A stretch of 64,000 nt of DNA from an uncultured Afifella sp. (lineage in GTDB: Bacteria; Pseudomonadota; Alphaproteobacteria; Rhizobiales; Afifellaceae). The position numbers and the translations under genes are program-made. Below, in pieces: positions 31,673 through 41,204 of the stretch (within the stretch, counting starts at the first letter, position 1; every line of letters starts with the position of its first letter). The stretch is taken from the NCBI GenBank assembly GCA_947259045.1, contig CAMYKZ010000027.1, positions 1 to 64,000 of the forward strand, written 5' to 3'. A model generated the notes under the pieces. That model made no database searches. It saw nothing but the letters and a program-made list of their open reading frames with translations, and had not been told where the DNA came from.

Positions 31673-32521
31673 TCATCCGTCACAAACCGGCGTCAGCCGA
31701 TCAGATTTCCTGGCGGCTGTCGCCGCAATCAACCGGCCGGAATTCGGGACACCTGTCCCGAGGCCGGGTCGCATCCTTGATGCGGCTCGAGCGACGGTGC
31801 GAAAACACCTCAGCTCTGTTAGCGGAGGCCAGAAGTGCCTGGCTGAATCCGACTGGCATGGTCGATCATGCCGGTTGGTTTCAAATCTCGAAATCGCCGT
31901 GATGACTTTAGCGCATCGGCCAGTCGCGGTCAGCGGCAAACTTCGAAACGAAATTATAGGACAGGATGACTGTCCTTTATCGCCGCGAGATTTACAAATT
32001 TTTCGCTAATGAGCAAGCGGCAAACGTGCAAATCGCGAAACAAACCGCCGCAAACCGTTGCGCTACTGCGACAAATTAACGATTTCCGGAGGCCGCAGAC
32101 TGTGCGCCGATCAGTCATCGATCACTGACCGGTCACCGGCTGCTCACTGTTCTGTGATTCGTCATTCCAGTCGGGAATTCCCATCTTAATGGTCTGGCAA
32201 ACCCGCTCCGTGTTGCGGGGTTGCGTCAAAGATCCGCTCGCCTGATGCCTGTCGCCCCCATGTGCAGGGCGGGCGGATCACCTTTCAGACCCCCGAGAAC
32301 AGGCGTCCGAGAACCGCCCCCTGCAATCAAGTTCTGCGCTCACTGGAATCCGGCGGAGATTGCGTCCGGCACCGCGATCACGCAAACGTTACACCTGCGT
32401 CAATCTTTGGTCGCAGATATGTCATTTCCATTTGAAGCGCCGAATTGCATTTATCTCGTCGTGGCGCGGCGGGGTCGCCGTGTCAGTTTAACCGAACGAA
32501 TTAAACAAGAGGATTCATTCA
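31673..32521. other. Long intergenic region upstream of gltB and of the bufferin operon
   Basis: In 849 bases between two divergent operons I find no convincing gene. It must hold both promoters. One notable element is CGGGACACCTGTCCCG at 31745-31760, with perfect seven-base arms, placed about 75-90 bases before gltB; it could be an operator. A GC-rich imperfect hairpin (AACCCGC...GCGGGGTT) lies near 32199-32221. GAGGA at 32511-32515 is the ribosome site of the precursor gene. A small RNA here cannot be excluded. Confidence 0.5.
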
Positions 32522-32824
32522 ATGTCCACAACGACCAAATCGATGACCGCTCTCGCACTTGCAGGTGCGGTTGCCACTGCACTGAGCGCAGTTTCCATTT
32601 CCGGCTCTGCCGAAGCTGCCGAGAACGAAAAATGTTACGGCGTTGCAATGGCCGGTCAGAATGACTGCAAGGCCGGTGCCGGCACGACATGTGCAGGTAC
32701 GTCGACAGTTGATTATCAGGGCAATGCCTGGAAGGCTGTTGCCGAGGGCACCTGCACGACAATGGAACTGCCTGATGGCCGCATGGGTTCGCTGGAAGAG
32801 CTCGATCGCGACCTTCCGTCCTGA
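32522..32824 (+). CDS. bufA1: Bufferin precursor peptide (DUF2282, BufA1/GigP-like)
   Basis: The 100-residue exported peptide has a signal peptide of about 33 residues (ending SGSAEAA) and a core with four cysteines, at 38, 49, 57 and 78, in the family motifs [24 protein letters not shown] and GTC. DUF2282 proteins are precursors of bufferins: ribosomal peptides whose cysteines are partly turned into thiooxazole groups by the adjacent DUF692 enzyme so that they bind copper in the periplasm. The gene leads a four-gene operon and has a GAGGA ribosome site. The function is taken from the family; no metal data exist for this copy. Confidence 0.9.
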
Positions 32825-32858
32825 CAACCGATCTCCAACAACGAGACCTTATCGGACC

Positions 32859-33824
32859 ATGAAGACAAAAACGCCTCCCAAGCTGCCGTCTCGCCTGTCA
32901 TCTGGCCCATCTTCCGGCCTGACTTCTGGCCTGACTTCTGGGCTGGCCGGCAATCATGGTTCGGATATTCTGCCGGTCCCCGCTCGCGCGGGGGTCGGTC
33001 TGAAGGCGGATCATTATCGCGATATTCTCGATACCAGCCCCGATATCGGCTGGTTCGAAGTTCATCCGGAAAATTATATGGGCGCCGGCGGTCCGCCGCA
33101 TCGTTATCTCGGTGAGATCCGCGAAAAATACCCGTTGTCGTTACATGGCGTCGGCCTGTCGATCGGCGCCGACCGGGCGCTGGATACCGACCATGTCGCC
33201 AGGCTGAGAGACCTGGTTGACCGCTACCGGCCGGCGCTCGTATCTGAGCATCTGGCCTGGTCGACCCACGAGACCTCGTTCCTGAATGATCTGCTGCCGG
33301 TTCCCTATACCGAAGAAGCGCTTGGGCGGGTTGCCGACCATGTCGCACAGGTGCAGGACGCGCTTGGACGGCAGATCCTGATTGAAAATCCCTCGACTTA
33401 CGTGGTGTTTGAATCCAGCACGATGAGCGAGACCGATTTTCTCAACGCGATTGTCGAGCGCAGCGGCTGCGGCCTGCTGCTCGATGTCAACAATGTCTTT
33501 GTTTCCGCGACCAATCACGGTTTCAGCCCGGAATTCTATATCGATACGTTTCCAGTGGAACATGTCGGCGAGATCCACCTTGGCGGTCACGCCGAAGACG
33601 AAGACGAAGCCGGATATCCGCTGCTGATCGATGCCCATGACAGGGCCGTCGTCGATCCGGTTTGGGCGCTTTACCGGCGCACAATCGGCCGCTGCGGCCC
33701 GACCGCCACGCTGATTGAGTGGGACAATGATATTCCCGCCTGGCCTGAGCTTCTTGCCGAAGCCCAATGTGCCGATGCAATCATCTCCGAAGCCGCACAA
33801 GGAGCCTGCCATGCCGCTGCATGA
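32859..33824 (+). CDS. bufB: Multinuclear non-haem iron oxidase, DUF692 (BufB/GigA-like)
   Basis: This TIM-barrel enzyme (MNIO family) modifies cysteines of the precursor peptide in the cytoplasm before export. Candidate iron ligands are visible: His96 in SLHGVG, Glu130-His131 in SEHLAW, Glu176 in IENPST, Asp209 and Asn211 in LDVNN, His220, His240 and His244 in EIHLGGH, Asp258-His260, and Glu287 in IEWDN. The protein has 321 residues; the ATG at 32859 is the only good start, leaving a 40-residue Ser/Gly/Leu-rich extension before the barrel that is unusual for the family. It starts 34 bases after bufA1 and overlaps bufC by 14. Confidence 0.92.
32895..32942 (+). repeat. Four 12-base tandem repeats in the 5' end of bufB
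   Basis: Four units of 12 bases (CTGTCATCTGGC, CCATCTTCCGGC, CTGACTTCTGGC, CTGACTTCTGGG) encode [12 protein letters not shown] and LTSG. The last two copies differ by one base. The reading frame is kept for any copy number, so the linker length can vary without breaking the enzyme. Confidence 0.9.
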
Positions 33825-34569
33825 CAGCCAGGCGGTCTTCGCCAAAGCATTGCTCGACCCCGACGCCGAAATGCCCGATGACATTCGCGGCCGCGACGGG
33901 CAGAAATCGGAAAAACGGTTCTCCGTCTACCGCAACAATGTCACGGTGTCGCTGGTGGAGGCGCTGGTCGCGACATTCCCGGCAACCGTGCGCATCGTCG
34001 GGGAAGAATTTTTCCGCGCCGCGGCTTCGATTTATGTACGCCAGGATCCGCCGAAGAGCCCGGTACTGATTTCCTATGGCACTGGTTTCCCGGATTTCCT
34101 GCAAACGTTCGAGCCGGCCCGGGGCCTGCCCTATCTGCCCGATGTCGCGCGCATCGAAATGGCCTGGGTGGAAGCCTATCACGCAGCCGACAGGCCGATC
34201 CTGCAGGCCGATGCGATCGCCGCCATTGCACCTGAAGCACTTGGCGATATCCGTTTTAAGGTCCATTCTTCGACCCACATTATCCGCTCGTCATATCCGA
34301 TTGTCACAATCTGGACCATGAACCGCAGCGGCGAGCCGCGCCCGGTCGATATGAGCATTTCAGAATCGGCTCTGGTGACCCGTCCGGCCATGGATGTCGA
34401 AGTTCGAAATCTGCCGCAGGGCGGCGGCACGTTCCTGCATGAACTGGCAAACGGCGCCACACTTGGCGAGGCCGCTGAACGGGCAGCAGCCAGCCATCCG
34501 CAATTCGATCTTGCCGGGAATATTTCCGGTCTTCTGGAAGCCGGCGTTTTCAGCCGGATCCTGTCCTGA
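33811..34569 (+). CDS. bufC: DUF2063 partner protein (BufC/GigB-like)
   Basis: The 252-residue cytoplasmic protein has the DUF2063 N-terminal domain (labelled putative DNA-binding in Pfam) with the typical [22 protein letters not shown] near residue 37 and the segment [20 protein letters not shown]. In bufferin and related MNIO systems this protein binds the enzyme and the precursor, acting as a recognition partner rather than a regulator. The ATG at 33811 has AAGGAG seven bases before it and lies inside the end of bufB, indicating coupled translation. Confidence 0.9.
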
Positions 34570-34601
34570 AATCAATTTATCGCCGAGAGGGAGGGTGAAC
34601 A

Positions 34602-35105
34602 ATGTCCGATGCGGCACATACTGAAATGTCCGAGGCATCCGGCGGGATTGCCGGGTTGGTCAGATGGGCAAACAATCTGCTCGCATCGGTTCCCCCGTCA
34701 CTGTCGCTGCTTGCGCTCCGAATTGCCCTGGCGGTACCGTTCCTGAAATCAGGATGGCTCAAGTGGGACGGGTTTCTGACACTGTCTGCGGGCGCGGAAT
34801 ATGTATTCCAGGATGAATTCAAGCTGCACATATTCGGTGCGCAATATCCCTATCCGTTTCCGCTGACATTCGCGTTCATGGCCGGAATTGCGGAAATCTG
34901 CCTGCCAATCCTGCTGATTCTCGGGCTCGGCACCCGGTTTGCCGCCTTCGGCCTGTTGATCATGACCGGTGTCATCCAGCTGACCGTGCCGGAAGGCTGG
35001 GCGAATTTTCATCTGCCCTGGGCCGCGATGGCATTGGCGCTGGTCGTCTATGGCAGTGGTAAATTTGCGGTTGATCCGGTCATTGGCCTGGAATCGAAAC
35101 GCTGA
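34602..35105 (+). CDS. DoxX-family membrane protein of the bufferin operon (GigT-like)
   Basis: The 167-residue inner-membrane protein has four predicted helices: around residues 32-50 (SLSLLALRIALAVPFLKSG), 85-105, 110-127 and 135-152. The DoxX wording FMAGIAEICLPILLILGLGTRFAA is present. GAGAGGGAGGG sits just before the ATG. DoxX proteins close many bufferin operons, where a redox role linked to the quinone pool or to peptide maturation has been proposed. It starts 32 bases after bufC. Confidence 0.85.
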   Translation: MSDAAHTEMSEASGGIAGLVRWANNLLASVPPSLSLLALRIALAVPFLKSGWLKWDGFLTLSAGAEYVFQDEFKLHIFGAQYPYPFPLTFAFMAGIAEICLPILLILGLGTRFAAFGLLIMTGVIQLTVPEGWANFHLPWAAMALALVVYGSGKFAVDPVIGLESKR

Positions 35106-36966: not shown

Positions 36967-37122
36967 CCCTTATCCATGGCGACGAAAAACGAATTATCCG
37001 GATTTCTGAACCGAATATGAACAGCGCCTTCCGACAGCGTTCAGGTTGCCGCCGCTAATTTGCATCCAACGTGATCGGACACCGGGAACCGGGCCATCAC
37101 GAAAACATTGAGGAGAGACACC

Positions 37123-37518
37123 ATGTTATTCAAATCAACCCTTGCCGCTGGTATCGTCGCGCTGTCGGTGATTGCTGCATCCGCACCGGCACAGGCCCAT
37201 TCGCCCAGCCTCAGTGTTCATGGATCGGGCGGCGGCGTCAGTATTCAGTCCGGCGGCCATGGCCCTCGTCATGACCGGAGAGACTGGAGGCGAGACCGCG
37301 GCCAGCGCTATCACCTTTCAGTCTGGCAGGTTCGCCGCCAGCTTCGCCATCGCGGTTTCCGCGACATGTATTTCGTCGACCGCCGTGCACCGGTTTACAA
37401 GGTCCGGGCCATCGGCCCGCGTGGCCACCGGGTGTTGCTCGTCGTGAGTTCGCAGACGGGCCGGGTCATCAATCGCCAGCCCCTCCGGCGGCATTATCCA
37501 GCCCGGCGGCGCTACTGA
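37123..37518 (+). CDS. Exported basic protein of unknown function
   Basis: The 131-residue protein has a signal peptide of about 27 residues ending APAQA, a Gly/Ser-rich segment, then an Arg-rich domain with WQVRRQLRHRGFRDMYFVDR and a beta-hairpin-like KVRAIGPRGHRVLLVVSSQTG. The second half resembles PepSY-type or small periplasmic domains seen in many rhizobial proteins, but I cannot name a family. AGGAGAGA sits before the ATG at 37123. A strong terminator follows at 37578, so it is a single-gene unit. Confidence 0.75.
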   Translation: MLFKSTLAAGIVALSVIAASAPAQAHSPSLSVHGSGGGVSIQSGGHGPRHDRRDWRRDRGQRYHLSVWQVRRQLRHRGFRDMYFVDRRAPVYKVRAIGPRGHRVLLVVSSQTGRVINRQPLRRHYPARRRY

Positions 37519-39631: not shown

Positions 39632-39706
39632 TACGTTGTATCGCATGCCCTCATTGGGCGTTTCCTCCCTAGACTTGGGTCGCACTTCGGTGCGACCCCT
39701 TTTTTT
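39632..39706 (+). ncRNA. mmgR: suhB/MmgR (alpha-r8 type) trans-acting small RNA
   Basis: There is an isolated plus-strand transcript unit between two minus-strand genes. It shows a short hairpin GCCC-TCATT-GGGC (39647-39659), an unpaired GTTTCCTCCCTAGACTT (anti-Shine-Dalgarno-like CCTCCC), then a perfect nine-base terminator stem GGGTCGCAC / GTGCGACCC (39677-39698) with UUCG loop and a seven-T run. This order, length of about 75 bases and position between an IMPase-family gene and an N-formylglutamate amidohydrolase gene fit MmgR of Sinorhizobium. There MmgR limits polyhydroxybutyrate storage. The 5' end is estimated. Confidence 0.8.
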
Positions 39707-39735
39707 GCCTGTATTCCGGAAATCTGTCCGCGCAG

Positions 39736-40623: not shown

Positions 40624-40808
40624 TTAACCGTCCTATCCCCTGTTAATGGGCGCTTAGATCCCGTAAATGGCCATGATTGCCGCAATTTTGGCACGAATCT
40701 TCCTGATATGTTGCCGCTGGAATGCGTCTGTGTCCACATTAATGGTATTTTCGCCGTTGCCGTGCAGAAACTTACCCGATATTTACCCGAATGCATCAAG
40801 GTCGCCGA

Positions 40809-41204
40809 ATGACAATGAACAATATCACACCGGAGGGCCAATTGAAGGGCCGTATCCTGCTTGCAGAAGACGACGAAGATATGCGCCGGTTTCTGGCAAA
40901 AGCGCTGGAAAATGCGGGCTATCAGGTGGTCTCCTTCGATAATGGTCTGAGCGCATACGAACGTTTGCGCGAAGAGCCGTTCAACCTTCTTTTGACCGAT
41001 ATCGTGATGCCGCAGATGGATGGTATCGAACTGGCGCGAAAAGCGGCGGAACTCGATCCTGATCTGAAGATCATGTTCATTACCGGTTTTGCGGCTGTTG
41101 CGCTGAATGCCGATCTTGAAGCGCCGAAAGATGCCAAGATCCTGTCCAAGCCGTTTCATTTGCGCGATCTTGTCAGCGAAGTCAGCCGGCTGATCGCCGC
41201 TTAG
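40809..41204 (+). CDS. cpdR: Single-domain response regulator CpdR
   Basis: This receiver-only protein, in its unphosphorylated form, docks to ClpXP and helps degrade cell-cycle proteins such as CtrA; the CckA-ChpT phosphorelay turns it off. The receiver is complete: acidic pair LLAEDDEDMRRFL, phospho-Asp in LLLTDIVMPQMDGIE, Thr in FITGFAAVALN and Lys in LSKPFHLRDL. The ATG at 40809 gives 131 residues, about 10-12 more at the N-terminus than usual; no closer start lies in front of the domain, and AAGG precedes the codon. Confidence 0.92.
   Translation: MTMNNITPEGQLKGRILLAEDDEDMRRFLAKALENAGYQVVSFDNGLSAYERLREEPFNLLLTDIVMPQMDGIELARKAAELDPDLKIMFITGFAAVALNADLEAPKDAKILSKPFHLRDLVSEVSRLIAA

Follow-up and report, generated by a model that had tools for sequence, protein, structure and literature searches.

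The window examined here, a 64,000-nt stretch of alphaproteobacterial DNA, encodes a complete Buf1 bufferin operon that is probably activated by an OmpR-family regulator, most likely CenR. The locus itself is an ordinary chromosomal operon of the Buf1 (gig) type with all its parts in place. Buf1 loci are known by the thousands (PMC12452194), and the operon itself is a further example of this large family. The new part is the regulatory prediction: an operator matching CenR would tie a copper-binding RiPP to a cell-envelope regulator. The four genes of the operon are as follows:

32522..32824, + strand: bufA, Buf1 (DUF2282) bufferin precursor, 100 aa; PF10048, 86.5 bits, above the curated cut-off
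32859..33824, + strand: bufB, multinuclear non-haem iron oxidase (MNIO) bufferin maturase, 321 aa; PF05114 (MbnB_TglH_ChrH), 363.7 bits, above the cut-off
33811..34569, + strand: bufC, DUF2063 partner (PME type 1), 252 aa; PF09836, 87 bits over residues 7-97, above the cut-off
34602..35105, + strand: doxX, DoxX-family membrane protein, 167 aa; PF07681, 61.6 bits, above the cut-off

The initial annotation had described a DUF2282-DUF692-DUF2063-DoxX set at 32522-35105 and assigned it to the bufferin/gig family. Both its coordinates and its families were borne out by Pfam and NCBIfam, and the locus displayed nearly every feature of that family that can be tested in sequence. BufB scored 397.5 bits against the NCBIfam model NF050167 MNIO_BufB (“MNIO family bufferin maturase”, cut-off 310), and the DoxX protein scored 56 bits against the HvfX family, below the cut-off of 80. 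The bufC gene overlaps bufB by 14 nt, and the length of its product lies within the 250-260 aa class; a profile search of the second half of BufC against solved structures, in which an RRE-type domain was sought, gave no match. BufA contains exactly the four family cysteines, counted in the translation at residues 38, 49, 57, and 78, precisely where they had been placed before. Its N-terminus, judged by eye, is signal-peptide-like, with cleavage probably near residue 32. The genome holds one DUF2282 gene and one MNIO gene, both in this operon, and no other was found.

Across 86 BufB sequences, the MNIO metal-site residues H96, E130, H131, E176, D209, N211, H240, D258, and H260 are conserved. 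Via the 3BWW alignment, we read N211, D258, and H260 as the probable counterparts of N175, D242, and H244 in site 3 of HvfB. The start of the window's BufB (32859-32975) is a low-complexity N-terminus with a repeated protein motif, encoded by 12-nt tandem repeats. The aligned family part begins near residue 40, and many relatives' BufB proteins start nearer to that point.

The products resemble those of described systems closely. Buf1 bufferin clusters (PMC12452194) and captophorins (PMC12668002) contain the window's four genes in the usual order (precursor, MNIO, DUF2063 partner, DoxX), and their four conserved cysteines and signal-peptide-like N-terminus also occur in the window's BufA. We detected no difference from Buf1 clusters in the protein-coding part, and like many of them the locus is sigma-less. 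The ECF16 bufferin operons, governed by SigF in Caulobacter and RpoE7 in S. meliloti (PMC3511200, PMC6180224), share the biosynthetic genes with the window, which lacks their sigma/NrsF pair and their GTAAC-N16-CGAA-type promoter.

To place the locus among its relatives, we searched one genome per species (84,980 species) with BufB and retained the best 80 loci; a search of the window's GTDB family contributed five more, giving 85 related loci in total. The A-B-C order is kept in nearly all of these, and DoxX follows in most. Precursor cysteines are offset by 11, 8, and 21 residues, the spacing seen in the window, or by 11, 7, and 21 in a short form. In about 30 loci, gltB lies divergently upstream, as it does in the window, and a PLP aldolase is found downstream in many. 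We read the gltB-linked locus as an old chromosomal position, inherited vertically. An NrsF gene adjoins 13 other loci, none of them at gltB; a Pfam check of NrsF-linked examples confirmed NrsF in four, two of which also have an adjacent ECF-type sigma factor.

Some relatives vary in their precursors. In eight loci (L003, L046, L050, L051, L058, L059, L085, and L088) bufA is present twice, and in most of these loci one of the two copies is the short form, whose second and third cysteines are separated by one residue fewer; L063 carries a short-form bufA alone. A DUF2282 precursor in another locus (L044:4764-5099) has two additional cysteines near its C-terminus.

The initial annotation had left control of the operon open. 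Our analysis of the upstream region predicts CenR-type boxes there and finds no SigF/RpoE7-type ECF promoter. Pfam scans of 24 flanking ORFs revealed no DNA-binding regulator near the operon; the one response regulator noticed in this neighborhood (40791-41204) is small and CpdR-like, with a receiver domain alone. A structured RNA leader was considered and rejected: there was no Rfam match near the operon, and the 5' region folded no better than shuffles (z -0.31). The predicted upstream elements are as follows:

32144..32158, + strand: second CenR-type inverted repeat TCACTGTTCTGTGAT, TCAC-N6-GTGA, starting at -378 from bufA; CenR score 11.1
32378..32392, + strand: CenR-type box TCACGCAAACGTTAC, starting 144 nt before bufA; rank 1 of 127,972 positions in the 64 kb (CenR matrix)
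32407..32440, + strand: 11-bp-period direct-repeat element, conserved in gltB-linked bufferin promoters
32411-32425: weaker CenR-type box TCGCAGATATGTCAT within the direct-repeat element, starting at -111; CenR score 9.1
32421-32438: core GTCATTTCCATTTGAAGC within the direct-repeat element

De novo motif discovery in the promoters of 29 gltB-linked loci recovered the pattern TTGATTTCC.ATTgAtCG with a log-likelihood of 255, compared with 55-69 in six shuffled sets. The TTGATTTCC element sits mostly 82-134 nt before bufA and was present in 24 of 30 gltB-linked loci versus none of the 12 NrsF-linked ones. In its extended form, it comprises repeats of 11-bp period (identity of 0.39 at lag 11, against 0.15-0.26 at the other lags of 8-14), and the TGA-N8-TGA spacing found within it is that of the CenR binding motif published for R. 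sphaeroides (PMC9275681). The window's own copy is a divergent one. When scored with a held-out matrix, from which the window and its family had been excluded, the copy ranked second of 127,934 positions in the 64 kb, in the expected place and on the expected strand; when the 220-nt upstream region was shuffled 4000 times, the score was reached in 15 cases. We also considered a wide regulon for this element and rejected it: a 28-nt pattern allowing up to three mismatches matched the bufferin site alone in six genomes, and the few extra matches of a 17-nt pattern were, by estimate, about as many as chance would give.

The sharpest match to a known operator lies just upstream of this element. 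In S. meliloti, CenR binds the inverted repeat AGTCAC-N6-GTGACT at srlA, as demonstrated by gel shift and promoter mutation, and a related repeat is listed at chvI; the authors note that the two motifs align (PMC9561847). The half-sites of the box at 32378-32392 are identical to those of the chvI repeat. Within the 64 kb, TCAC-N6-GTKA is found twice, each time inside the gap between gltB and bufA. A slightly tighter pattern has 23 matches in 4.77 Mb, and two of these fall in this 850-bp gap, where about 0.004 would be expected. The boxes at -144 and -111 are 33 bp apart, that is, three turns of the 11-bp repeat. In both sequence and half-site spacing, the predicted box matches the published CenR operators of R. 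sphaeroides (PMC9275681) and S. meliloti (PMC9561847), whereas the published targets consulted include no bufferin operon and CenR binding at the window is a prediction.

We then scored promoters with a CenR matrix based on 31 published sites, all from R. sphaeroides, taking the median published site (10.85) as the threshold. Overall, 33 of 75 bufferin promoters scored at or above this median, compared with 2 of 217 control promoters and 0.7% of 18,595 tiles, with the limit that loci were thinned for near-identical upstream sequence only, so that relatedness inflates the enrichment p-values. By class, 14 of 29 gltB-linked, 5 of 12 NrsF-linked, and 14 of 34 other bufferin promoters reached the threshold; the gltB-linked enrichment is partly circular, because the repeat was already known when CenR was taken up as a candidate, and the circularity is smaller for the other two groups, though TCACG..CGTGA had already been seen there de novo. 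The box was absent at the three gammaproteobacterial loci. Together, what we observe looks like a similar CenR-like switch recurring before bufferin operons across the Alphaproteobacteria.

Several observations were counted against the CenR reading. Genome-wide scans, conducted by pattern only, revealed no overall excess of boxes (12-13 per strand versus 24 per strand for a control pattern), and these boxes lie mostly inside genes. A good box is also missing in some close relatives within the family, and no CenR orthologue was singled out among the genome's OmpR-type regulators. At tolQ, the intended positive control for CenR in this genome, the nearest box is inside the preceding gene, and the published R. 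sphaeroides table of CenR targets contains no bufferin gene. On other contigs of the same genome, intergenic TCAC-N5-YGTKA boxes precede genes with exported-looking products at four loci (L125, L128, L129, and L134), a placement expected of CenR targets; the box at L134 is the palindrome GATCACGCTTTTGTGATC.

Weighing these results, we consider it very likely that the upstream boxes are a real conserved operator, and we favor, with less assurance, CenR itself as the protein that reads them. The main alternative keeps the same bufferin operon and assigns the boxes to another OmpR-family regulator of similar specificity, for example a copper-sensing regulator of the CopR/CusR type or ChvI. Direct repeats with an 11-bp period suit the whole OmpR family (PMC9275681), and OmpR-type regulators are numerous in this genome, the best of them scoring 247.8 bits against the CopR/SilR model. 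However, none reaches that model's cut-off of 279.2 bits, and the box resembles published CenR sites from two genera. We regard another regulator of this family as possible but rather unlikely. Two specific candidates were rejected: a CopR/SilR-type regulator, whose matches fall below the family cut-off and of which none is adjacent to the operon, and UzcR, whose motif CATTAC-N6-TTAA does not fit the boxes.

With CenR as the favored regulator, the operon may work as follows. The response regulator of CenKR would activate transcription from the boxes at -144 and -111, and perhaps from that at -378. BufA would be made with its signal-peptide-like N-terminus, and BufB together with BufC would oxidize cysteines 49 and 57, the inner pair, to thiooxazoles that bind copper, while the outer pair, 38 and 78, would form a disulphide. 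Export of the mature product would place it in the periplasm, where it would buffer excess copper, with DoxX assisting at the membrane. These steps follow characterized systems, in which BufB with BufC converts the two central cysteines to thiooxazoles, a disulphide joins the outer two, and periplasmic copper is sequestered (PMC12452194; PMC12668002). Thiooxazole formation, export, and copper binding are thus predicted for the window's BufA on grounds that are well founded by homology.

A function directed mainly at another metal or at oxidative stress (gold, chromate, or cadmium), rather than copper buffering, appears improbable. Related Legionella operons are reported to respond to gold as well as copper (PMC5413113), and related Caulobacter operons respond to chromate and cadmium (PMC3511200). 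Nevertheless, in Caulobacter, where SigF controls the bufferin genes, its loss caused copper sensitivity and left the chromate/cadmium profile unchanged (PMC8224329), and bufferins sequester copper (PMC12452194).

The ECF16 (SigF/RpoE7)-NrsF switch very probably does not control this operon. The Caulobacter SigF promoter has the form GTAACC-N16-CGAA (PMC3511200), and a similar form is found at the operon controlled by RpoE7 in S. meliloti (PMC6180224). Such a promoter was detected in all 12 NrsF-linked loci tested and in none of 30 gltB-linked loci (chance rate, 2%). The region upstream of bufA contains no promoter of the GTAAC-N16-CGAA type, and an ECF promoter there was rejected. The earlier observation that no sigma or anti-sigma gene adjoins the operon was correct, and it extends further, since an NrsF gene was not found anywhere in the genome, whose 96% completeness makes a missed copy possible but unlikely. 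In Caulobacter, a single SigF governs a second, unlinked bufferin cluster (PMC3511200). A comparable arrangement here, with an ECF16 sigma factor and its NrsF-type anti-sigma encoded away from the operon, is highly improbable, given the missing promoter and NrsF gene.

The CenR-type box also accompanies the ECF promoter in other loci. Of the 12 ECF loci with such a box, 8 (L034, L041, L048, L053, L055, L057, L065, and L068) have it 10-11 bp ahead of the -35, with a TCACGAANTCGTGTT-like box preceding the GTAAC -35 element. This arrangement suggests dual control by an activator and a sigma factor. We consider the chances about even that alphaproteobacterial bufferin operons are direct CenKR targets, with CenKR acting alone where the sigma pair is lacking, as here, and jointly with an ECF sigma factor otherwise. 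CenKR is an envelope-stress system of alphaproteobacteria, and its regulator CenR is essential in several of them. If the CenKR reading is true, copper buffering would be part of general envelope maintenance rather than a dedicated copper-sensor response. In the literature searched, we found no proposal of a regulator for sigma-less bufferin loci and no report of CenKR control of bufferin operons, and none of the works listed there as mentioning DUF692, DUF2063, or bufferins also mentions CenR.

Two further features were observed downstream of the operon. The product encoded at 37108-37518 is small and basic, begins like a signal peptide, and matches no Pfam family; secreted ORFs are similarly placed in some gltB-linked relatives. 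Farther downstream, at 39640-39713, lies a small RNA of the mmgR/suhB family (Rfam RF00519), which adjoins an N-formylglutamate amidohydrolase gene, the gene for the CpdR-like receiver protein, and tRNA-Val.
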